Positions 5,013-47,706 of a stretch of 64,000 nt of DNA are shown one piece after another (position 1 is the stretch's first letter; each line of letters starts with the position of its first letter). The notes below the pieces were generated by a model. It searched no databases. It was given only the letters and a program-made list of their open reading frames with translations, and was not told where the DNA came from. Source of the stretch: Bradyrhizobium sp. CCBAU 53340 (GTDB taxonomy: Bacteria > Pseudomonadota > Alphaproteobacteria > Rhizobiales > Xanthobacteraceae); NCBI RefSeq assembly GCF_015291645.1, contig NZ_CP030055.1, positions 6,944,001-7,008,000 of the forward strand, read 5' to 3'. A program made the position numbers and the translations under genes.

Positions 5013-6014
5013 TTACTTCAGGTTGGTCATCGCCGTCAGGTCGAAGGACAGCTTGGCGATACCGGCCGCGCCGCACCAGTTGGAGCCGGCGCCGCCCGGG
5101 TTGATCGCGGTCACGTTGGTGGTGCCGGTGGCATTGAAGGCGCTGGTGAAGGCGTTGCAATCACCCTTGTTCAGGTCGGTGTCGGAGTAACGCAGGTCCA
5201 GCGTGAACACCTTGTAGGTGAAGCCGACGCCGACGTTCCAGGTGTTGTAGCTCTTGTAGGGAATGCCGTTGGCGTAGATCGTTCCCGGGAGGCCATAGAA
5301 GGCATCCGAGGTGCCGAGCCACTGACGGCCGAACTCACCCGACACGTACATGCCGACGCCGGAAGCACCGAAGGTCGTGCTCGGTGCGATCCACTTCGCG
5401 GTCACCGACGCGTAGTCGCCCCAGGCACCCGAGTTCAGGAAGTTCGGCGAGTAGTACTCGTTCACGCCGACCGACCAGTTGTCGTTGATGGTGTAGTTCA
5501 CCTTGCCGTAAACTTCGAAGAAGCTGACGTCCTTCTTCATGACGTTGCCGTCGGCGAGGAAGATGGTCGTGGTGCTGACGGGGCAAACGCCGCCGCCGGG
5601 GATGCCGCCGGTGAGCACGTTGTCGGCGCAGCTGCCGCCCGGATACAGGTAGCCCCAGACGCCGATATCGAACGCGAAGGCGCCGAAGGTCGGGCGGATA
5701 CCGCCGTAGACGTCGACTTCAGCCGCGGCGCGGTTGGCGAAGGAGATGCTCTCCGCGGACACGCCGGCGTAGAGCTGGAGATCCTTGTTGATGTTGTAGC
5801 GGGGCTCGAAATAGGCGGCCACCGACGGCTTGTGGTTCGACTGGGTCACGCCGCGGAAGATGTAGTCGCTCATGATCGCGCCGCCGAAGGCGATATCCCA
5901 GGGATCGAAGGCGGGCGCCGGGGGAGCCTTCAGGGCCTTCAAGGGCATGTCTGCCGCGAAAGCCGAACCCGTCACCATTGCCAGCGCCGTTGCCAACAAA
6001 GTTACTTTCTTCAT
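5013..6014 (-). CDS. TorF-like (gcw_chp family) outer-membrane porin
   Basis: This 333-residue exported protein has a clean signal peptide (MKKVTLLATALAMVTGSAFA) and a short Pro/Ala linker. The rest is an aromatic- and glycine-rich beta-barrel sequence. The family signature is visible: GGAIMSDYIFRGVTQSNHKP early, LYAGVSAESI, the GVNEYYSPNF strand, and a closing FTLDLRYSDTDLN plus LSFDLTAMTNLK. This agrees with the proteobacterial gcw_chp/TorF family of putative porins, which have no firmly assigned substrate. The start at 6014 is chosen because the signal peptide begins there and GGGGATC lies just upstream. The frame continues 40 codons further but without signal character. It is monocistronic with its own terminator. 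Confidence 0.85.
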   Translation of the reverse strand: MKKVTLLATALAMVTGSAFAADMPLKALKAPPAPAFDPWDIAFGGAIMSDYIFRGVTQSNHKPSVAAYFEPRYNINKDLQLYAGVSAESISFANRAAAEVDVYGGIRPTFGAFAFDIGVWGYLYPGGSCADNVLTGGIPGGGVCPVSTTTIFLADGNVMKKDVSFFEVYGKVNYTINDNWSVGVNEYYSPNFLNSGAWGDYASVTAKWIAPSTTFGASGVGMYVSGEFGRQWLGTSDAFYGLPGTIYANGIPYKSYNTWNVGVGFTYKVFTLDLRYSDTDLNKGDCNAFTSAFNATGTTNVTAINPGGAGSNWCGAAGIAKLSFDLTAMTNLK

Positions 6015-6342
6015 TTGATCCCCATCACCAGTTCTAAAACCCCGGTCGAGCTCCGGACCCCCCGGGTGCCCGACCTGAATTGCAAATTTCGTTACTGCGG
6101 CAATCTGGCTGGCGGAACGCAAAGCGAGAAGCAAAAAACACGGGCATCTGCCGACTTTTTGGGCGTTCTCACGATTCCGCGAAAGGTTGTCAGCCGGTGT
6201 TGCATCTCGATCACATTATTTTCACGCCAAAGTGCATAGCGGGTCCCGGGAGACTACGTAGGCCGACCGCCCCGTGGCCCCCGCGCTACGAATCAGCTGA
6301 CTCAAAAAAGAGCAGCCCTCCGCCCGCTGCGGGTAGCGATGC
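6015..6342. other. Upstream region of the porin gene
   Basis: About 330 bases lie between the porin start and the terminator of the histone-like gene. It must contain the porin promoter on the minus strand. I see no convincing gene, tRNA or palindrome in it. Confidence 0.5.
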
Positions 6343-6373
6343 AAAAAGGCCGCAGCATCACCGCTGCGGCCTT
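6343..6373 (-). terminator. Terminator of the histone H1-like gene
   Basis: AAGGCCGCAGC (6346-6356) and GCTGCGGCCTT (6363-6373) form an 11-bp stem with a 6-base loop. On the minus strand it is followed by TTTTTGC. It sits about 90 bases beyond the stop of the Lys/Ala-rich protein gene. Confidence 0.85.
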
Positions 6374-6423
6374 CCTGTGATCGATGAGGCCAAGGCAGCA
6401 GACCCTGCCTCTGGTCCAGTCGT

Positions 6424-6456
6424 GATCCAGCCTTGATCCAGCCTTGATCCAGCCTT
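6424..6456. repeat. 11-bp tandem repeat, three copies
   Basis: GATCCAGCCTT occurs three times head to tail (6424-6434, 6435-6445, 6446-6456), immediately after the stop codon of the histone-like gene and before its terminator. A short tandem array like this is prone to copy-number change. Confidence 0.9.
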
Positions 6457-6462
6457 TGGGGC

Positions 6463-6813
6463 CTAACCTTGCCCCTCGGCCGGTGTCGGCTCCGCAGAAG
6501 ACGAAGGCATCGCCCAGCTTGTCTCGGCAGCAGGCTCGGGAGCCGGCGCAGCCGCGGGAGCCGCCGGCTTCGGCGCGGGAGCTGCCTTCGCCTTCTTCGG
6601 AGCCGCTTTCTTCGCAGTCTTCTTGGCGGCCTTCTTGGGCGCCGCCTTCTTGGCCGCCTTCTTCGGCGCGGCCTTCTTGGCAGATTTCTTCGCTGACTTC
6701 TTGGCAGACTTCTTTGCGGACTTCTTGGCCGCCTTCTTCGTCGCCTTCTTTGCGCTTACGGCCTTCTTGGCCTTTTTGGCCTTCTTGCTTTTCTTCTTGC
6801 TCGCTTTCGCCAT
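6463..6813 (-). CDS. Histone H1-like Lys/Ala-rich DNA-binding protein
   Basis: This 116-residue protein is almost entirely Lys and Ala, built from KKSA, KKAAP and KKAAK units over residues 5-80. A Pro/Ala tail and a short acidic end (AEPTPAEGQG) follow. The composition matches bacterial H1-like proteins (AlgP, HctA-like, alphaproteobacterial KAAP proteins), which bind DNA nonspecifically and may compact the nucleoid. The start at 6813 (MAKASKKK) has AGGAGG 8 bases upstream. An in-frame ATG at 6840 lacks this support. The coding DNA is itself repetitive (GCCTTCTTGG-type units on the plus strand), so copy number may vary between strains. It stands alone with its own terminator. Confidence 0.85.
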   Translation of the reverse strand: MAKASKKKSKKAKKAKKAVSAKKATKKAAKKSAKKSAKKSAKKSAKKAAPKKAAKKAAPKKAAKKTAKKAAPKKAKAAPAPKPAAPAAAPAPEPAAETSWAMPSSSAEPTPAEGQG

Positions 6814-6883
6814 CGTGGTCCTCCTGTTGCCGCCGAACAATGGTCGATCGGGCGCCCTTCTGCCGTCACCTCAAGGCGAAAGC

Positions 6884-8206
6884 TCAGCGCGACGCATCCA
6901 ATGCCGGCCGCGACCCGCCCGTAGCCCAATCGAGAAGCTCAATCGTGTGTACGACCGGAACTGACGTGCCACTGGCAATCTGCACCATGCAGCCGATATT
7001 GCCCGCGGCAATCATGTCCGGCTTGACGCTCGCGATGTTGGCGACCTTGCGATCGCGCAACCGGCCCGCAAGCTCGGGCTGGAGAATGTTGTAGGTCCCC
7101 GCCGAACCGCAACACAAATGGCTCTCGGGCACATCTTTCACCACGAATCCATTCTTGGAAAGCAATTCTTTCGGAAGGCCCGTGATTTTCTGTCCGTGCT
7201 GCAACGAGCACGCAGAGTGATAGGCGACGACGATGTCGTCCCGCTGCGTGCTCGGCGCAAGGCCAAGACCAGCGACGTATTCGGTGATGTCCTTCGCCAG
7301 CGCCGACACGTTCGCCGCATCGGCCGCGAACGCTTTGTCCTCGCGCAGCAGATAGCCGTAGTCCTTGACGACAGTGCCACAGCCGGACGTCGTCACCAGG
7401 ATGGCGTCGAGCCCCTCGCCGGCGACCTCTTTTTGCCACGCCGTGACGTTGGCACGCGCCCGCGCCAGCGCATCTTCGTCATGACCAAGATGATGGGTGA
7501 GCGCGCCGCAGCATTGCTCGTCCTTGACGAGGACGACCTCGATGCCGTGGCGGGTGAGAAGGCTGATGGCGGCCTGGTTGATGCGCGGTGCCAGCACCTG
7601 CTGGGCGCAGCCCTGGAGCAGCGCGACCCGGCCACGCTTCTTGCCGAGCGCTGCGAATACGCTGCCCGGCAGCGCACCCGGCGCCGGCAGCCGGTCCGGC
7701 GCCAGCGCCAGCATCGCCTTGAGGCGCTCGATCAGGCCTGGCGTGGCCGAGGGCCGCGGGGTTGGCAGGAAGACAGCAAGCGGCCGGGCCAGCTGCGCCA
7801 GCCGCATGCTGATGCGAAACCATTGCGGGTCCGGTAGCACGAAGGCGAGCACCCGGCGCAGCATCCGCTCGACGAGCGGCCGCTCGTAGCGCTGCTCGAT
7901 CCTGACCCGGGCCTGGTCGACGAGGTGCATGTAGTTCACGCCGGAGGGGCAGGTGGTCATGCAGGACAGGCACGACAGGCAGCGATCGATATGCTTGACC
8001 ACGTCGGCGGACGGCGCCTGGTCCTTCTCCAGCATCTCCTTGATCAGATAGATCCGGCCGCGCGGGCTATCGAGCTCGTCACCGAGCAACACATAGGTCG
8101 GACAGGTCGCGGTGCAGAAGCCGCAATGGACGCAGGCGCGCAGGATCTTGTCGGCCTCCGCGATGTCGGGATCGGCCAGCTGGGCGAGTGAGAATTCGGT
8201 CTTCAT
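6884..8206 (-). CDS. glcF: Glycolate oxidase iron-sulfur subunit GlcF
   Basis: This 440-residue protein carries two 4Fe-4S ferredoxin motifs, CVHCGFCTATCP near residue 25 and CLSCLSCMTTCPSG near 76. Two CCG-type domains follow with the cysteine pairs QCCGALTHHLGH and LCCGSAGTYN. This is the standard GlcF layout, in which electrons from the flavin subunits pass through the clusters to the quinone pool. Its ATG overlaps the glcE stop by four bases (ATGA type), so the two are translationally coupled. glcD lies 3 kb upstream, separated by an opposite-strand gene. Confidence 0.93.
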   Translation of the reverse strand: MKTEFSLAQLADPDIAEADKILRACVHCGFCTATCPTYVLLGDELDSPRGRIYLIKEMLEKDQAPSADVVKHIDRCLSCLSCMTTCPSGVNYMHLVDQARVRIEQRYERPLVERMLRRVLAFVLPDPQWFRISMRLAQLARPLAVFLPTPRPSATPGLIERLKAMLALAPDRLPAPGALPGSVFAALGKKRGRVALLQGCAQQVLAPRINQAAISLLTRHGIEVVLVKDEQCCGALTHHLGHDEDALARARANVTAWQKEVAGEGLDAILVTTSGCGTVVKDYGYLLREDKAFAADAANVSALAKDITEYVAGLGLAPSTQRDDIVVAYHSACSLQHGQKITGLPKELLSKNGFVVKDVPESHLCCGSAGTYNILQPELAGRLRDRKVANIASVKPDMIAAGNIGCMVQIASGTSVPVVHTIELLDWATGGSRPALDASR

Positions 8207-40693: not shown

Positions 40694-41686
40694 ATGACTG
40701 ATCGACCGACCGTCCTCGTCACAGGGGGCGCGGGCTATATTGGCTCGCACGCCTGCCGCGCCCTGGCCGCCGCCGGCTATCGGCCCGTCGTTTATGACAA
40801 TCTTTCGACAGGCCATCGCAATTTCGTGTCGGGGGAACTGGTTACGGGCGATCTGCTGGATGGCGCGACACTGGCGCGTGCCTTTGCCGATCACAGGGTT
40901 GCGGCAGTGATGCATTTCGCGGCAGCAAGCCTCGTCGGCGAGTCCATGACCGACCCGCAGAAATATTACATCAACAACGTGCAGGGAACGCTGTCGCTGC
41001 TCCAGGCGATGCGCAATGCCGGCTGCCATCGCATCGTGTTCTCCTCGACCGGCGCCGTCTATGGCAATGCCGATTCCAAGGCGCTGCCCGAGGATTTCCC
41101 CTGCGCGCCGATCAACCCCTACGGCGCCTCGAAATGGATGATAGAGCGCATGCTCGCTGACTACCGCGCAGCTTACGGCTTTGGCGCATTCTGCCTGCGC
41201 TATTTCAATGCCAGCGGCGCGGATCCGGCCGGCGGCATCGGCGAATTGCGCGACAACGAAACTCATCTCATTCCACGGGCCATGATGGCCTTGCAGGGTC
41301 ATGTCGAGTTCGCCGTGTTCGGCGACGATTACGACACGCCCGACGGCACCGCGATCCGCGACTACATCCACGTCACCGATCTTGCCGCAGCGCATGTCGC
41401 GGCCCTGAAGCTCCTCGAAACCGGACATGCCGGCGGCAGCTTCAATCTCGGCACCGGCTCGGGCTTCTCGGTGCGCGAGATCCTCACCGCCATCAGGCAG
41501 GAGACCGGGCGAGAGGTGCCGCACACCGTCAAGGCGCGCCGCGCCGGCGATCCGACCTACCTCGTTGCCGATCCCTCGGCGGCGCGAAAGGTGCTGGACT
41601 TCGTGCCGCGCTATTCCGACCTGCAGACCGTGATCCTGACCGCCTGGGCCTGGCACCAGAAGGCGCATCCGCTCAAGCTCCGTTAA
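40694..41686 (+). CDS. galE: UDP-glucose 4-epimerase
   Basis: This 330-residue extended SDR enzyme has the NAD-binding GGAGYIGSH (residues 11-19). The catalytic pair is Ser/Thr in VFSSTGAVYG and Tyr/Lys in NPYGASKWMIERML (YxxxK). RYFNASGADPAGGIGE and AIRDYIHVTDLAAAHV are also GalE hallmarks. It interconverts UDP-glucose and UDP-galactose, supplying galactose donors for the polymer. In rhizobia this gene is often called exoB. It starts 17 bases after the WecG-like stop and ends the plus-strand group. Confidence 0.92.
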   Translation: MTDRPTVLVTGGAGYIGSHACRALAAAGYRPVVYDNLSTGHRNFVSGELVTGDLLDGATLARAFADHRVAAVMHFAAASLVGESMTDPQKYYINNVQGTLSLLQAMRNAGCHRIVFSSTGAVYGNADSKALPEDFPCAPINPYGASKWMIERMLADYRAAYGFGAFCLRYFNASGADPAGGIGELRDNETHLIPRAMMALQGHVEFAVFGDDYDTPDGTAIRDYIHVTDLAAAHVAALKLLETGHAGGSFNLGTGSGFSVREILTAIRQETGREVPHTVKARRAGDPTYLVADPSAARKVLDFVPRYSDLQTVILTAWAWHQKAHPLKLR

Positions 41687-41914: not shown

Positions 41915-42268
41915 ATGCATCAGGCCGCACGCCTGACGTTCGAGCGCGTAATGGATGAGTTCGTTCGCTGGCATGTCGTGCCCGAGAGCGAGCGCTCGCC
42001 TGCGCCGGCCTGGTGGTGGGGACCCGCCATGGCGGTGGTCGACGACCGCGAGCCATTGAGCGCGACATTGAGTAAAAATTGGCGTGGCGCGCTGGGCCTC
42101 GGCGACGACGCAAGCTTCGCCGACGCCGCCTGCATGGTTCTCTCGCTGTTCGTCGAGCAGACCTCGCTGACGGGACCCCAGGATTTTCCGAGCAAAGCGG
42201 AGGCCGCCGATCACGACGTCCGCGAACTGCACCCGCTGCCGTCAGACGACAGCGCTTTTCAGCCGTAG
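41915..42268 (+). CDS. Hypothetical protein, 117 residues
   Basis: This 117-residue soluble protein has no recognised domain. It is notable for a Trp cluster (PAPAWWWGPAMAVVDD). The ATG at 41915 has AGGGAG about 10 bases upstream. The frame is open back to 41735, but the extension is Arg-rich and not protein-like. Its 3' end overlaps the convergent GGDEF/EAL gene by 27 bases. Confidence 0.6.
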   Translation: MHQAARLTFERVMDEFVRWHVVPESERSPAPAWWWGPAMAVVDDREPLSATLSKNWRGALGLGDDASFADAACMVLSLFVEQTSLTGPQDFPSKAEAADHDVRELHPLPSDDSAFQP

Positions 42269-45200
42269 CGCGACGGCTTCGTCCGCGGCCGGGTCCGTCT
42301 CCGGCTGCAGCGGCGGCGCGACCGGCAGCTCCATCGGGCGCAGCAGCTCGGCCATCTGCTTTGCCGGCAGCGGCTTGGAAATCAGGAAGCCCTGCATCTC
42401 GTCACAGCCATGGGTGCGCAGGAATGCCTCCTGCTCGGCATTCTCGACGCCCTCGGCGACCACGGTCATGCCGAGTGCCTTGCCCATGCTGATGATGGCC
42501 TGCGCGATCGCCTGGTCCTCCGAATCCTGCGGCAGGTCGCGCACGAAGGAGCGGTCGATCTTGATCGTGTCGATCGGGAAATGCTTCATCAGCGACATCG
42601 ACGAATAGCCGGTGCCGAAATCGTCGATGGCAAGACGGATGCCGCGGCTCTGAATGGCGTCGAGCACCTTCAGCGCACGACCGACATTGCGCATCATCAT
42701 GCTCTCGGTGACCTCGAGCTGGAGCAGCACCGGTGACATGCCGGAGGCCGCCAGCGCCTCGTCGACGTCCTGCAATAGATGCTCGTCGGCGAATTGCCGC
42801 GGCGACAGGTTCACCGCCATCGACAACGGCAACAGGCCGCGGCGCTGCCAGGCCATGGCCTGCGCGCAGGCCTCCTTCAGCACCCAGCGGCCGATCGGTA
42901 CGATCAGACCGGTCTCTTCCGCGAGCGGAATGAACTGCGCCGGCGAGACGTTGCCGAGATCGGGATGGTTCCAGCGCAGGAGCGCCTCCACGCCGGTGAT
43001 CTGGCCGGTCTCCATGTCGACCTTGGGCTGGTAGTTCAGCGAGAACTGGTCGCGCTCCAGTGCACGGCGCAGCGCGCTTTCGAGCGACAGCCGCTCGATC
43101 GACTGCGTCTTCACTTCCTTGGAGAAGAAGCGATAGCCGTTCTTGCCGTCTTCCTTGGCGAGGTACATCGCCATGTCGGCATTCTTGGTCAGCGTCTGCA
43201 CGTCGGCGCCGTTGGCCGGATACATCGCGATGCCGATCGAGGCCGTGGTGTGGCACTCGTGGCCGGCGAGCTCCATGGGCTCGGCGAGCGCCGCGAGCAG
43301 TCCGGTGGCGATGCGCTGGACGTCGTCGATCTCGCCGCATTGGTCGAGGATCACCACGAACTCGTCGCCGCCGAGACGCGCCACCACGTCGCTTGTGCGC
43401 AGCGCCTTGCGCAGGCGAGCGGCGACCTCGAGCAGCAGCAGATCGCCGGCCTCGTGGCCGAGCGAATCATTGATGACCTTGAAGCGGTCGAGATCGATGA
43501 ACAGGACTGCAAACTTGTGATCGCCGCGTTGCGCCGTGCCGATAGCCTCGCGCAGCAGGCCGTTGAAGGTCTCGCGGTTCGGCAGATTGGTCAGGCTGTC
43601 GTGGGACGCGAGATACTCGATGCGCTCGTCGGCCTTGTTCTTCTCGTCGGCGCGGTCGAAGTTCTCCATCGCAAAGGAGACGTTGGCCGCAAGACGACGC
43701 AACAGCTCGACGAACTCCCCCGTGAAGGTGTCGAGCTCGGTCGACATGTAGATCATGACGCCCACGGACTCGTCATGCGTGATCAGCGGAAACGCCGCGC
43801 CGGAGCGCGCGCCGTCGCTGCGGACGATGGCCTGGAATGCGCTCACCCTGCTATCATTGACATAGTCGTTGCTGACGCAGGGCTGGCGGGAGCGGAACGC
43901 CGTGCCGCTCATGCCGCGGCCTTCGGGCCGGTTGGCATCGATGGAGAGACGAACGTTCCTCGTGGTCTCGGCCGACGGTCCCGCGGCCGCGACGATCTCG
44001 AGCTGATCGCTGTCGGCCTTGGCGAGGGCAATGGTCGTCGAGGTGAACTTGCCGCCGGTGGATGCCGCCTGGCACACCAGCTCGAACAACTCGGGGCGCG
44101 ACTTGGCACGCATGATCGCTTCGTTGGTGGCGCTCAGCGCCGCGAACATGCGCGTCAGGCGCTCCTTCTGCGCCTCGGTCCGCGACCGTTCCTCGGCACG
44201 GTCGAAATTGTCGAGCGCAAAGGAGACGTTCTCCGCGAGGCGTCCCAGCAGCTGGATGAGATCCGGTGTGAAGGTGCCTTCATCCGGCGAGAGGAACAGC
44301 AGGACGCCGATGGCATCGGTGCCATTCTTCAAAAGCGGAAAGCAGCCGCCTGATTTCGTGCCCTGATCGTGCGCGATTCGGCGCCAGTGCTTCGCACGAA
44401 CGTCGGTGAGCAACTCGTTCGCGACGCTGGGGGCCTTGGTCCGGAACGCGGTGCCGACGAGGCCCCGCCCCTCGACCTCATCCGCGGACGTCGCGAAGCG
44501 CCATTGGCCGACGTGGTGGCGGCATTCGCCCTTGGTGACGGCGATGTCGAGACGCTGCCCGGTCGGATCGACCATGGCGATCGTGGCCGACGAGAACGTG
44601 CCGCCGAGAACGGCCGCGTCGCACACCGCTTCGAACAGCTCGGCGCGGGTCTTCACGCGCATGATGGCTTCGTTGGTCGCGCTTAGCGCCTCCAGCATGC
44701 CGCGCAGACGATTGCGCTGCATCTCGGCCTTCGCCTTCTCGTCCGCCCGATCGAAATTCTCGAGCGCGAAGGCGACGTTGGCCTGGAGCCGCTGCAGCAG
44801 CTCGACGAATTCCGGCGTGAACGTGCCGAGCTCCGGCGAGTTGAAGAGAAACACCCCTTCGATACGGTCGCCGTTGAACAGCGGCAGCGCCGCGGAGGAT
44901 CCGATGCCGTTGCGGCGGGCATTGTCCTGCCAGGGCTTGGTCCGCTCGTCGGCCAGCACGTCATTGCTGATGCAGGGCCGGCGCGTGCGGAAGGCCGTTC
45001 CCGTCAGCCCGCGCCCTTCGGGCACCTGATCGGAGATGGAGAACTTGAAGCCGCGGATCGTCTCCGCGTTGGGTCCATAGCAGGCCGTGACGCGGAGCAG
45101 CCCGGCATGGTGATCGACCAGCGCGATGGCGGCCGTCGTGAACTTGGCGCCCTTCGCTGTCGCCTCGCAGACGAGATCGAACAGCTCGGCCCGCGAGTGC

Positions 45201-46357
45201 GCGCGCAGGATCGCCTCGTTGGTAGCGCTCAGCGCCGCGTACATGCGCGCGAGGCGATCCTCCTCCTCGGCAATCCGGGCCTTCTCGGCCTCACGATCGA
45301 AATTGTCGATCGCAAAGCAGACGTTCTCGGCGATGCGCAGCATCAGCGCGACGATTTCGTCGTCCTTCGCCCAGGACCGGCTGAGAAAGGACAGGATGAC
45401 GCCAATGCTTTCGCCGCGGCTGACCAGGGGCGCCACAACGCAGGCCGCAACACCCGTGTTGACGTTGATCCGCTCCCACGGCGTCCCCTTGGTGTGGCTC
45501 GCGAGATCGCGTTCGACATGCGGCTTCTGCGAACGAAAGACCTGGCCGGAGATACCCCGGCCATAGGGATTGTCGGGATCGACCGAATAGCGGGTCTGGG
45601 TTACGAGCTCCATGTTTTGACCGGTACCCGCGACGGGCGTCAGCCAATGGGAGTCCGGCTCCTTCAGCAGAACGAAGGTCGCCAGCGACTTCCCGCCATG
45701 CACCGAGGCGTCGCACACCAGTTGATACAGCTCCTGCACGGTTTTCGCACGCAAGATGGCTTCGTTGGTCGCGCTGAGCGCGCCGAACATGCGGTTGAGC
45801 CGCCGCGTCGCACGTTCGCTGGTGTGCCGCGCGGTCTCGCGCGCGAAATTCTCCAACGCATAGGAAATATTGGCCGACATGCGCTCGAACAGCGAGACCA
45901 TTTGCTCGCTGAGCGAGCCAACCTCGCTGCGGGTCACGTAGAGCACGCCGACGCCGTTGCCATTGCAGAACAGCGGCACTGCCGCAGCTGCGCCAATGTT
46001 GGCCTTCGCGGCGCCCTCGCGCCAGGCCAGCGAACGCGGATCGTTCAGATAGTCGTTGCTGACGCAGAGTTTCCGGTTGCGAAATGCCTCGCCGCCGACG
46101 CCCATGCCTTCGGGCGTTCCGGCTTCGACGGTGATCTCGATCGCACGCAGCCGCGCAACATCGTCGCCGCAACCGGCCGCAAAGCGCAGATGCCGGCCGT
46201 CCGGTCCCACCAGGAATACGGCCACGGCCAAAAAGTCCCCGCTCGAAAACCCGGCGTCGCAGACCTTCTGGTACAGCTCATCCGGCGATTTCGCGTAGAG
46301 GATCGCTTCATTGATGGCGCTCAACGCCGCAAAGGTGCGCGCGAGTGTCGTCGGCAC
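42242..46357 (-). CDS. Five-GAF GGDEF-EAL cyclic-di-GMP enzyme
   Basis: This is a very large protein (1371 residues from the GTG at 46357). Five GAF domains lie head to tail, each opening with a close variant of ALSATNEAI and spaced about 183 residues apart (near residues 6, 190, 372, 556 and 738). A GGDEF domain follows with GGDEF near 995 and an intact inhibitory site RTSD five residues before it. The EAL domain has EALLRW near 1124, NLSPRQF, DDFGTGYSS and AEGVEN. Both enzymatic halves keep their catalytic residues, so it could make and degrade c-di-GMP. No membrane helix is seen. The start at 46357 has GGGAG upstream, while the GTG at 46399 does not. It is monocistronic. Confidence 0.92.
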   Translation of the reverse strand: MPTTLARTFAALSAINEAILYAKSPDELYQKVCDAGFSSGDFLAVAVFLVGPDGRHLRFAAGCGDDVARLRAIEITVEAGTPEGMGVGGEAFRNRKLCVSNDYLNDPRSLAWREGAAKANIGAAAAVPLFCNGNGVGVLYVTRSEVGSLSEQMVSLFERMSANISYALENFARETARHTSERATRRLNRMFGALSATNEAILRAKTVQELYQLVCDASVHGGKSLATFVLLKEPDSHWLTPVAGTGQNMELVTQTRYSVDPDNPYGRGISGQVFRSQKPHVERDLASHTKGTPWERINVNTGVAACVVAPLVSRGESIGVILSFLSRSWAKDDEIVALMLRIAENVCFAIDNFDREAEKARIAEEEDRLARMYAALSATNEAILRAHSRAELFDLVCEATAKGAKFTTAAIALVDHHAGLLRVTACYGPNAETIRGFKFSISDQVPEGRGLTGTAFRTRRPCISNDVLADERTKPWQDNARRNGIGSSAALPLFNGDRIEGVFLFNSPELGTFTPEFVELLQRLQANVAFALENFDRADEKAKAEMQRNRLRGMLEALSATNEAIMRVKTRAELFEAVCDAAVLGGTFSSATIAMVDPTGQRLDIAVTKGECRHHVGQWRFATSADEVEGRGLVGTAFRTKAPSVANELLTDVRAKHWRRIAHDQGTKSGGCFPLLKNGTDAIGVLLFLSPDEGTFTPDLIQLLGRLAENVSFALDNFDRAEERSRTEAQKERLTRMFAALSATNEAIMRAKSRPELFELVCQAASTGGKFTSTTIALAKADSDQLEIVAAAGPSAETTRNVRLSIDANRPEGRGMSGTAFRSRQPCVSNDYVNDSRVSAFQAIVRSDGARSGAAFPLITHDESVGVMIYMSTELDTFTGEFVELLRRLAANVSFAMENFDRADEKNKADERIEYLASHDSLTNLPNRETFNGLLREAIGTAQRGDHKFAVLFIDLDRFKVINDSLGHEAGDLLLLEVAARLRKALRTSDVVARLGGDEFVVILDQCGEIDDVQRIATGLLAALAEPMELAGHECHTTASIGIAMYPANGADVQTLTKNADMAMYLAKEDGKNGYRFFSKEVKTQSIERLSLESALRRALERDQFSLNYQPKVDMETGQITGVEALLRWNHPDLGNVSPAQFIPLAEETGLIVPIGRWVLKEACAQAMAWQRRGLLPLSMAVNLSPRQFADEHLLQDVDEALAASGMSPVLLQLEVTESMMMRNVGRALKVLDAIQSRGIRLAIDDFGTGYSSMSLMKHFPIDTIKIDRSFVRDLPQDSEDQAIAQAIISMGKALGMTVVAEGVENAEQEAFLRTHGCDEMQGFLISKPLPAKQMAELLRPMELPVAPPLQPETDPAADEAVALRLKSAVV

Positions 46358-46653
46358 GATCTCAGCTCCCGGGCATTTCTGCCTTTTTTCCCGGGTCACG
46401 TTATGGGGGCGGATCGCCTAAGTGGTCGTTATTGCGCGCTGCAAACCGCCAATCAAAGTGAACGAGCTGCGAACACCGAGCGAGAAACTTCCGGGAATAC
46501 CGCTGCGCGGGAGGATGCTTCGACGAAAGGCGCGTTCTCTTTACGAATTTGCAGCCCTGTATTGGTTTACAGGAGATTGATATCGCAGCTCCGCTTTGAG
46601 ACGATGGCTTCCAACAAGCAGCCCGTGAAGGGCACGAAAGCCGAGGGAACGCC
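46358..46653. other. Divergent gap before the catabolic operon
   Basis: About 296 bases lie between the GGDEF/EAL gene and the LDH_2-type gene. It should contain promoters for both. I see no clear palindrome, terminator or gene. Confidence 0.4.
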
Positions 46654-47706
46654 ATGCCCGTCGTCAAGGCCGACCGCCTCACACGCGTCAGCGCTGCGCT
46701 GCTCCGCGCCGCCGGAGCCTCGGAGGAAGAAGCCGACGCGGTGGCCACCGGCTGCGTCAACGCCAATCTCGCCGGCCACGACTCCCACGGCGTCATTGCG
46801 GTTCCAACCTATATCGACCGCATCAAGGCCGGCCACATCGTCCCCGGTGCCATTTGGACCATCGAGCAGGAATCGCCGACCACGACCGTGATCGACGGTC
46901 ATTGGGGTTTCGGCTTCCACGTCAACGCCAAGGCGATGGCGCTGACGATCGAGAAGGCGAAGACGGCGAATGTCGCAGCCTGCACCGTGTTCCGGCAGAG
47001 CCATGTCGGACGCCTCGCGGCCTACCCGCTGATGGCGATGCGCGAGGGCATGATCGGGATTGCAACGGCGGATTCCGGCCGCTCGCCGAAGCACGTCGCG
47101 CCGTTTGGCGGCAAGGAAGCGCGGCTCGGCACCAATCCGATCTCGATCGCGGTGCCGTCCGATCTCGACACGCCATTCTATCTGGACATGGCGACCTCGG
47201 CCGTGGCCGCCGGCAAGATCCAGCTCGCGGTCGCCCGCGGCGAGGAGATCCCGACGGGGTGGATCATCGATGCTGAGGGCCGGCACACCACCGATCCCAC
47301 CCAATACCGCAGGGGCGGCGCATTGCTGCCGCTCGGCGGGACCGAGGGCTACAAGGGCAGCGGGCTCGCCGCGATGGTCGAGGTGCTCTGCGGCCTGCTC
47401 ACCGGCCTCGGCTTCGGCGTCGAGCCGACCGGGCGGCACAATGACGGGTGCTTCATGGCGGTGTTCAACGTCGCCGCCTTCCGCCCGCTGAAGGAGTTCA
47501 AGCGCGAGGTCGCGGAGTTCGCGCGCTATCTGAAATCGACGCCGCCGTCCGAGGGCAGCAAGGGCGTCTATTACCCCGGCGAGATCGAGGGCCTGCGCGA
47601 GCAGCAGCGCCTGCGCGACGGCATCGAGGTCGAGGATGCGACCTGGGAGAAGTTGCGTGCGCTGGCGCGCGACTACAGGCTCGACACCGTGCTCGATCTG
47701 TCCTGA
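46654..47706 (+). CDS. Malate/L-lactate dehydrogenase-family (LDH_2) oxidoreductase
   Basis: This 350-residue protein belongs to the LDH_2/MDH type-2 family (YlbC, ComC, Dpka-like). It has LAGHDSHGVIAVPTYIDRIK, NVAACTVFRQSHVGRLAAYP, GKEARLGTNPISIAVPS, FYLDMATSAVAAGKIQLA and LLPLGGTEGYKGSGLAAMVE. Members reduce 2-oxo acids or cyclic imines with NAD(P)H. The substrate of this one is unknown. GAGGGAA lies before the ATG. It is followed after 21 bases by a flavin monooxygenase and then an FAH-family hydrolase, so a catabolic operon is likely. Confidence 0.85.
   Translation: MPVVKADRLTRVSAALLRAAGASEEEADAVATGCVNANLAGHDSHGVIAVPTYIDRIKAGHIVPGAIWTIEQESPTTTVIDGHWGFGFHVNAKAMALTIEKAKTANVAACTVFRQSHVGRLAAYPLMAMREGMIGIATADSGRSPKHVAPFGGKEARLGTNPISIAVPSDLDTPFYLDMATSAVAAGKIQLAVARGEEIPTGWIIDAEGRHTTDPTQYRRGGALLPLGGTEGYKGSGLAAMVEVLCGLLTGLGFGVEPTGRHNDGCFMAVFNVAAFRPLKEFKREVAEFARYLKSTPPSEGSKGVYYPGEIEGLREQQRLRDGIEVEDATWEKLRALARDYRLDTVLDLS

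Follow-up and report, generated by a model that had tools for sequence, protein, structure and literature searches.

GAF modules of a predicted c-di-GMP enzyme are probably exchanged one at a time between Bradyrhizobium species

Introduction

GAF domains are very common sensors, and the ligand of most of them is unknown. The window analysed here, a stretch of 64,000 nucleotides from Bradyrhizobium sp. CCBAU 53340, encodes a protein in which five GAF domains in series precede a GGDEF and an EAL domain. This raises the questions of how such an array arose, how it changes between species and what it may sense. The first-pass annotation had interpreted the five units as similar copies resulting from recent internal duplication and had proposed that they work as a multivalent sensor or as a graded counter. 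GAF-GGDEF-EAL proteins, tandem GAF domains and strain-specific alleles of quorum-sensing kinases are already known. Here, we compared the gene, its pockets and its flanks with those of its relatives in the genus and beyond.

Results

Domain layout of the five-GAF protein

The gene is located on the minus strand (42242..46399) and its open frame encodes 1385 amino acids. Translation from the second GTG, in frame at 46357, gives 1371 amino acids; the window's database entry (P0001) and many of the relatives listed are equally long. Pfam GAF_2 matched the protein five times (E 4e-81), and PF13185 and PF01590 matched five stretches each with 270.4 and 173.7 bits (cut-offs 28.6 and 22.4), placing the protein among the GAF proteins. 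The units, all on the minus strand, are GAF1 (45797..46342, residues 20-201), GAF2 (45251..45796, residues 202-383), GAF3 (44705..45250, residues 384-565), GAF4 (44156..44704, residues 566-748) and GAF5 (43610..44155, residues 749-930), with pockets of types A, D, C, J and B, respectively. Their opening motifs start at residues 25, 207, 389, 571 and 754, a spacing of 182-183 residues that agrees with the five units about 183 residues apart annotated before. The annotated near-identity of the openings was also borne out, four units having exactly ALSATNEAI and GAF1 having ALSAINEAI.

GAF5 is followed by the GGDEF domain (43139..43609, minus strand, residues 931-1087; Pfam E 3e-50), with GGDEF at residue 1010 and the I-site RTSD at residue 1001, and by the EAL domain (42371..43075, minus strand, residues 1109-1343; Pfam E 7e-80), in which all signature motifs (which we took to be EAL, N, E, DD, K, E and Q) are present. 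Both domains are intact, as annotated. In the 171 genus genes parsed, GG[DE]EF and the RxxD I-site were each found in 170, and the individual EAL motifs in 169-171. The motif exceptions were L223, without a GGDEF match, L128 and L137, without DDFG[TA]G[YF][SA], and L143, without E-[LIVM]-TE[ST]. Judged from the motifs, the two domains form a predicted diguanylate cyclase/phosphodiesterase pair, and the enzyme would be bifunctional.

The catalytic half aligned with two solved structures, PDB 5m3c ('Diguanylate cyclase'; window residues 932-1364, E 1.7e-132) and PDB 4rnh ('Motility regulator'; window residues 927-1352, E 1.2e-127); the signature motifs are kept, whereas the sensory half of the window protein is a GAF array. 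Among the best 25 of 30 NCBIfam families, no equivalog exceeded its cut-off and the GGDEF domain model alone passed; DibA reached 484 of 980 bits, DosP 394.9 of 857 and Tlr1612 384.5 of 1600. GAF3 gave a match to Autoind_bind (PF03472), a label also found on many of the relatives listed. With 24.4 bits against a cut-off of 23.0 the match is weak, and so is the case for a quorum-signal ligand of GAF3 derived from it.

Genomic context

The gene is convergent to galE (UDP-glucose 4-epimerase; 40694..41686, plus strand; NCBIfam TIGR01179, 404.6 bits, cut-off 262.3), which forms the edge of a polysaccharide block, and divergent to a malate/lactate/ureidoglycolate dehydrogenase-like gene (ldh; 46654..47706, plus strand), which scored below its equivalog cut-off and was used for the flank tree described below; otherwise both serve as context. 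The block also contains a WecG/TagA/CpsF glycosyltransferase over its cut-off and an exopolysaccharide-transport-like protein below it (181.5 of 411.7 bits). With galE and the glycosyltransferase over their cut-offs, the adjoining polysaccharide block of the first-pass annotation was recovered, on the other strand. Of 120 loci of relatives, 46 had galE close by, 51 had wecG and 47 had the transport gene; these counts do not show absence, as only about 3.5 kb was fetched on this side and 10 of the 120 loci were outgroups. On the opposite side of the same loci, ldh was found in 99 and a luxA-like gene in 104. The neighbour names luxA-like, fah and lysR are presumptive and were assigned by us.

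The antisense frame of the gene was open over 1339 codons in G004 (L041) and over up to 1389 codons (G217) among the relatives listed, which is probably an effect of GC-rich codons.

Array forms in the genus and beyond

Searching one genome per species, we found a close match to the gene in 234 of 265 Bradyrhizobium genomes. The other 31 (e.g. G006, G032, G061) had no close orthologue at the thresholds used, and the gene may be absent from part of the genus. A sample of 198 genomes of the family gave 19 matches at E 1e-150 or better, of which 11, counting the window's genome itself, belonged to Bradyrhizobium and 8 to other genera.

We parsed 181 genes, namely 171 genus genes (window included) from the 234 matching genomes and 10 outgroup loci from other genera. 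Unusual lengths, that is, arrays of other than five GAFs, were oversampled on purpose, so the counts of array forms are not frequencies: of the 166 genus genes in which the first unit was complete, 135 had five GAFs, 21 had four, 7 had three and 3 had six. Arrays of five are the norm in the genus, at 135 of the 166 complete ones. In the 10 outgroup loci the model recognised 0-3 units, and the best 120 of 1605 database relatives had five (90), six (25), seven (4) or eight (1) GAFs.

At 62% average linkage the pockets formed 39 clusters, 28 of which occurred in genus genes. Wherever the first unit of a parsed genus array was complete, it was of type A; the one exception was L143, whose first pocket formed its own cluster. 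The first module is nearly fixed, and the later positions are a mosaic of pocket types. The pocket tree, which has many unresolved forks, contained the classes A (first position), D/H/K/Q/Z (second position), C/O, N/E/J, F and a large class including most last units. One pocket type could occupy differing positions, B being found at 3, 4 and 5 and F at 2 and 4. In the window's clade, which comprises 103 genes with cores at least 84% identical, the four-unit forms were A-D-C-B without GAF4, A-D-E-B without GAF3 and A-C-E-B without GAF2, and the missing units were unit-exact (e.g. 1208 versus 1391 codons). As judged from these comparisons, modules are lost, added or replaced between species while the remaining gene stays much alike.

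Several loci differed from this picture in other ways. Arrays of about 12 GAFs, which open frames of up to 2648 codons had seemed to offer, were rejected, as parsing gave five GAFs and a long stop-free stretch upstream. In the A-H-I-F-G loci (L079, L089, L092 and others) no stop interrupted the frame for as many as 1283 codons before GAF1, a stretch that carries ldh and the luxA-like gene on the opposite strand. In L134, which has six GAFs, four neighbouring pockets (F-V-W-X) are related, with a mean identity of 53-57% between types, a sign of older local expansion. A one-GAF version in a 700-codon frame was found on the conjugative plasmid of Neorhizobium sp. EC2-8 (L259; NZ_CP147998.1, match 6001-7950). 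Its GGDEF-EAL core is very similar (E 1.9e-265), and its 97% search coverage seems to arise because the single GAF matched more than one unit of the query. G449 and G361, from other genera of the family, each had two copies of the gene with short arrays, in open frames of 912 and 747 codons (L179 and L180) and of 1019 and 1073 codons (L181 and L182), respectively. The first GAF of L144 and L172 is cut at its N-terminus, the open frame covering it from model position 86 or 94, which may be due to a frameshift or an assembly error.

The five units are old

Beyond their openings, the units of the window gene are not similar copies: they share only 33-55% of their residues, 50-65% of their bases and 42-57% of their third codon positions. 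In pairs sampled from 87 clade genes, the pocket identity of different GAFs was 0.326 within one protein and 0.326 between proteins, and the corresponding values were 0.610 and 0.610 for the head and 0.430 and 0.431 for the tail. Since different GAFs of one protein resemble each other as much as those of different proteins do, there is no sign of concerted evolution. Corresponding GAFs across proteins had identities of 0.758 (pocket), 0.839 (tail) and 0.906 (head), and the highest pocket identity within any protein was 66% (complete units, 181 parsed genes). On these three grounds, i.e. the 33-55% identity, the absent concerted evolution and the ceiling of 66%, recent duplication of the units was rejected. 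Relatives sharing the five-unit form with ancient divergence, the outcome that the first-pass annotation itself had named as speaking against its proposal, are largely what we found. Tandem Repeats Finder was neutral on duplication, its longest period (500) being shorter than a unit (546-549 bases). The similar openings are conserved helix sequence and no mark of recent origin.

The five pockets are different and each is conserved separately; therefore, separate inputs fit better than a counter for one ligand. Of the proposed modes of action, the multivalent sensor holds in outline, as a multi-input array before an intact GGDEF-EAL pair, and the graded counter of one ligand does not.

GAF4 occurs as two anciently diverged alleles

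In the 88 five-GAF genes of the clade, position 4 was occupied by type E in 62 (one of them with a cut first unit) and by type J in 26 (window included), the E and J pockets being about 40% identical. Compared with the window, the GAF4 pocket identity of the 87 five-GAF clade relatives was bimodal, with 62 genes at 30-50% and 25 at 60-90%. The other four pockets never fell below 59% (medians 81, 74, 76 and 81% for GAF1, GAF2, GAF3 and GAF5). Similarly, the DNA of the window gene and L162 was 73-99% identical per 26-codon bin, and 44-60% identical in four bins over residues 599-702.

The alpha/beta ligand core of GAF4 (44282..44611, minus strand, residues 597-706) is where J and E are near chance identity at third positions. 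The third-position distance of the GAF4 pocket was 0.590 between E and J and 0.426 within types, with 0.638 expected by chance (56 E and 26 J genes). In GAF1, GAF2, GAF3, GAF5, GGDEF and EAL, the E/J pairs were within 0.01 of same-type pairs, and in the GAF4-GAF5 linker the distance was 0.330 versus 0.294. Near-saturation of silent sites in GAF4 alone, in genes that are otherwise alike, therefore indicates replacement and not fast change in place. The ratio of first plus second to third position distance was 0.25 for E and 0.33 for J; therefore, both pockets are under constraint.

Left of GAF4 (residues 500-589), E/J pairs were 56-70% identical at third positions versus 78-88% in controls; this may mean that the tracts reach into GAF3 or that the controls are more closely related. 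The pair sets used here (20 E/J pairs, the closest disjoint ones, and 20 controls) differed in mean flank distance (0.079 versus 0.064), which makes the all-pairs comparison given above the better control. Some close pairs also dropped in GAF2 or GAF3 (e.g. L166/L204, GAF3 71%), and exchange need not be confined to GAF4. Among E genes, the Spearman correlation with the flanking genes was 0.14-0.22 for the GAF2, GAF3 and GAF4 pockets, 0.38 for GAF1 and GAF5 and 0.57 for EAL. The contrast was weaker among J genes (0.33-0.55, 0.41-0.64 and 0.59, respectively).

No association of nodC with the allele was detected (45 of 67 E, 15 of 26 J, p = 0.47), and a link of E and J to legume nodulation was rejected. 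Records named B. diazoefficiens carried J (P0028) or E (P0085, P0093, P0098); since their identities to the window differ (82 versus 75%), the shared name is not evidence of polymorphism within a species.

Both GAF4 alleles are predicted to have the GAF fold (pLDDT 88.6 for the J model and 89.8 for the E model; GAF4 was the unit modelled), and in both models the divergent part lies between the terminal helices. The best Foldseek matches were GAF or phytochrome structures: the Lcd1 GAF with cAMP (20% identity) and the PtsP GAF for J, and phytochromes, the Aquifex Nlh2 GAF and the Lcd1 GAF for E. Identities to the nearest solved folds were 8-25% over both lists. A ligand could not be taken from the nearest structure, as the matches are generic GAF folds only.

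The alleles do not follow the tree

To place the alleles on a tree, we used two neighbouring genes, ldh and the luxA-like gene. This flank tree had 96 rows, after 7 of the 103 clade genes without a usable luxA-like match had been dropped; 14 of the 96 rows had luxA without a usable ldh. Counts were made on the 87 rows with E or J, 9 rows having neither. The minimum number of E/J switches was 16 on the flank tree, 15 on the GAF1 tree, 14 on the GGDEF-EAL core tree and 11 on the GAF5 tree. The count falls towards the module and therefore has the order expected if short tracts move. A single clade of all J rows was rejected on the flanking-gene tree (p-AU 0.0002). Shuffled labels gave means of 22.5-22.8 (flank 22.5) and minima of 16 (flank, 300 shuffles) and 17 (other trees, 200 shuffles each). 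As the observed count equals the lowest of 300 shuffles on the flank tree and is below all 200 on each of the others, E and J are not random on the tree and vertical inheritance also matters. E and J look like old alleles that were redistributed between species and are in part still inherited vertically.

A replaced GAF4 with edges in the linker helices

On the flank tree, L216 stands among J genes but has E itself. Compared with L211, L228, L230 and L235, it is 93-97% identical in the GAF1, GAF2, GAF3 and GAF5 pockets, 96% in the core and 92-93% in the flank, and 52-54% in GAF4. Its likeness to these J relatives stops at residues 554-560 and resumes at about residue 722; in between, it is closer to other E genes. 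In the GAF4 model (residue 1 being protein residue 560), the right edge of the tract falls in the long C-terminal helix (153-190). By analogy, the left edge would be in the matching GAF3 helix, just before the N-terminal helix of GAF4 (2-22).

The nearest E pocket to that of L216 in our set was 89% identical; therefore, no recent donor was caught. Pairs with near-identical GAF4 in otherwise divergent genes numbered zero, and one such pair was found for GAF2. We searched 7 of the 265 genus genomes (three J and four E, L216's own included) for a second E or J pocket copy, and found none at E 0.001. In all seven, only modules of this gene were matched, and a silent copy that could have served as donor within the genome was rejected at this threshold. 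Other strains are therefore the likely source and would be the donors of the incoming GAF4.

Discussion

Our results make it fairly probable that the gene product is a soluble c-di-GMP enzyme with several inputs, and that its GAF modules are exchanged singly when homologous recombination takes place in the conserved linkers. In related proteins, coiled coils connect GAFs that stand in tandem, and PAS or GAF sensors are commonly separated from catalytic outputs by signalling helices (PMC1592074). In the window protein, five old GAF modules, each an alpha/beta core between conserved helices, are strung on linker helices leading into GGDEF-EAL. Putative ligand binding in one GAF would shift this helical stalk and with it the balance of c-di-GMP synthesis (GGDEF) and breakdown (EAL), and the output may plausibly act on the adjoining polysaccharide genes. 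Recombination between linkers would lose or add whole units. GAF4 would be replaced by incoming DNA carrying one of the two anciently diverged pockets, E or J, and as the core is swapped between conserved helices, the coupling would be kept and the input changed.

For the function, the main rival is that the internal GAFs are structural or dimerisation units without ligands, and that E/J and copy number drift neutrally. This would suit the generic nearest folds, from which no ligand could be assigned, and the persistence of three-GAF arrays, but every pocket is under constraint and two pocket alleles persist across many species, and we regard such a role as rather unlikely. For the pattern, the main rival is a six-GAF ancestor with E and J side by side, from which one of the two was removed, lineage by lineage, through unequal crossing-over. 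Unit-exact losses are indeed common in the set, L148 has six GAFs with E followed by an E-like unit b (56% identical to E, 36% to J), and E, J and the outside type N stand together on the pocket tree (support 80-94). However, none of the 103 clade genes carries both E and J, though at least 16 switches are needed, and L216 has E within near-identical J genes, for which loss alone would require repeated parallel losses; we consider this history distinctly improbable. It is very improbable that GAF4 changed fast in place, under positive or relaxed selection and without exchange: pockets are more variable than the helical frame everywhere, but silent positions are near chance in GAF4 alone and the two discrete classes recur in separate branches. 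A recent duplication yielding a graded or multivalent counter for one ligand, suggested by the very similar opening motifs, is hardly tenable given the low identity of the units, the pocket ceiling and the absent concerted evolution.

The probable exchange of single modules through the linkers sets the protein apart from known systems with a similar layout. Mammalian phosphodiesterases have two GAFs. The same number precedes the cyclic-nucleotide enzyme in cyanobacterial CyaB2 (PMC4411481). Like these, the window protein has GAFs in series before a cyclic-nucleotide enzyme, but its family has 3-8 of them, and modules are gained, lost and replaced between species. In the multi-GAF cyanobacteriochrome All2699, three GAFs stand in series on a signalling protein (PMC6696110). 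The GAF series is shared with the window protein, whereas bilin binding is a feature of cyanobacteriochromes. In one clonal complex of S. aureus, recombination appears to have transferred agrBDC, an event that is rare in this species (PMC8768832), and ComP pherotypes are strain-specific receptor types (PMC4408185). AgrC groups and ComP pherotypes have in common with GAF4 E/J that discrete types stand on a conserved output, the difference in specificity being putative for E and J. As in Agr and ComP, we found discrete alleles, a conserved output and spread by recombination, with differential loss remaining a rival. In contrast, AgrC and ComP receptors adjoin their own signal gene; for the window gene no such partner was recognised, and the part replaced is a cytosolic pocket. 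Among the matches listed from mainly open-access literature, covering titles and the starts of abstracts, no report was found of this gene, of GAF cassette exchange or of module exchange in a cytosolic c-di-GMP enzyme.

E and J presumably bind different ligands, and the module differences may let related strains listen to different signals. It is possible, if tentative, that GAF4 makes an intracellular second-messenger enzyme polymorphic in its specificity: selection would maintain the ancient E and J in the clade, these would travel between species as cassettes of one domain, close relatives would route different cytosolic signals to the same c-di-GMP output, and the array would be an evolving combinatorial sensor drawing on the 28 pocket clusters of the genus. 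Genes that are 93-97% identical in the other pockets and the core and differ in one GAF core represent a natural swap experiment. Such matched E/J pairs are useful for finding ligands and for studying how a distal GAF signals across a further GAF to GGDEF-EAL. Our results suggest that linker helices serve as recombination joints, through which the sensor keeps working while its input changes.
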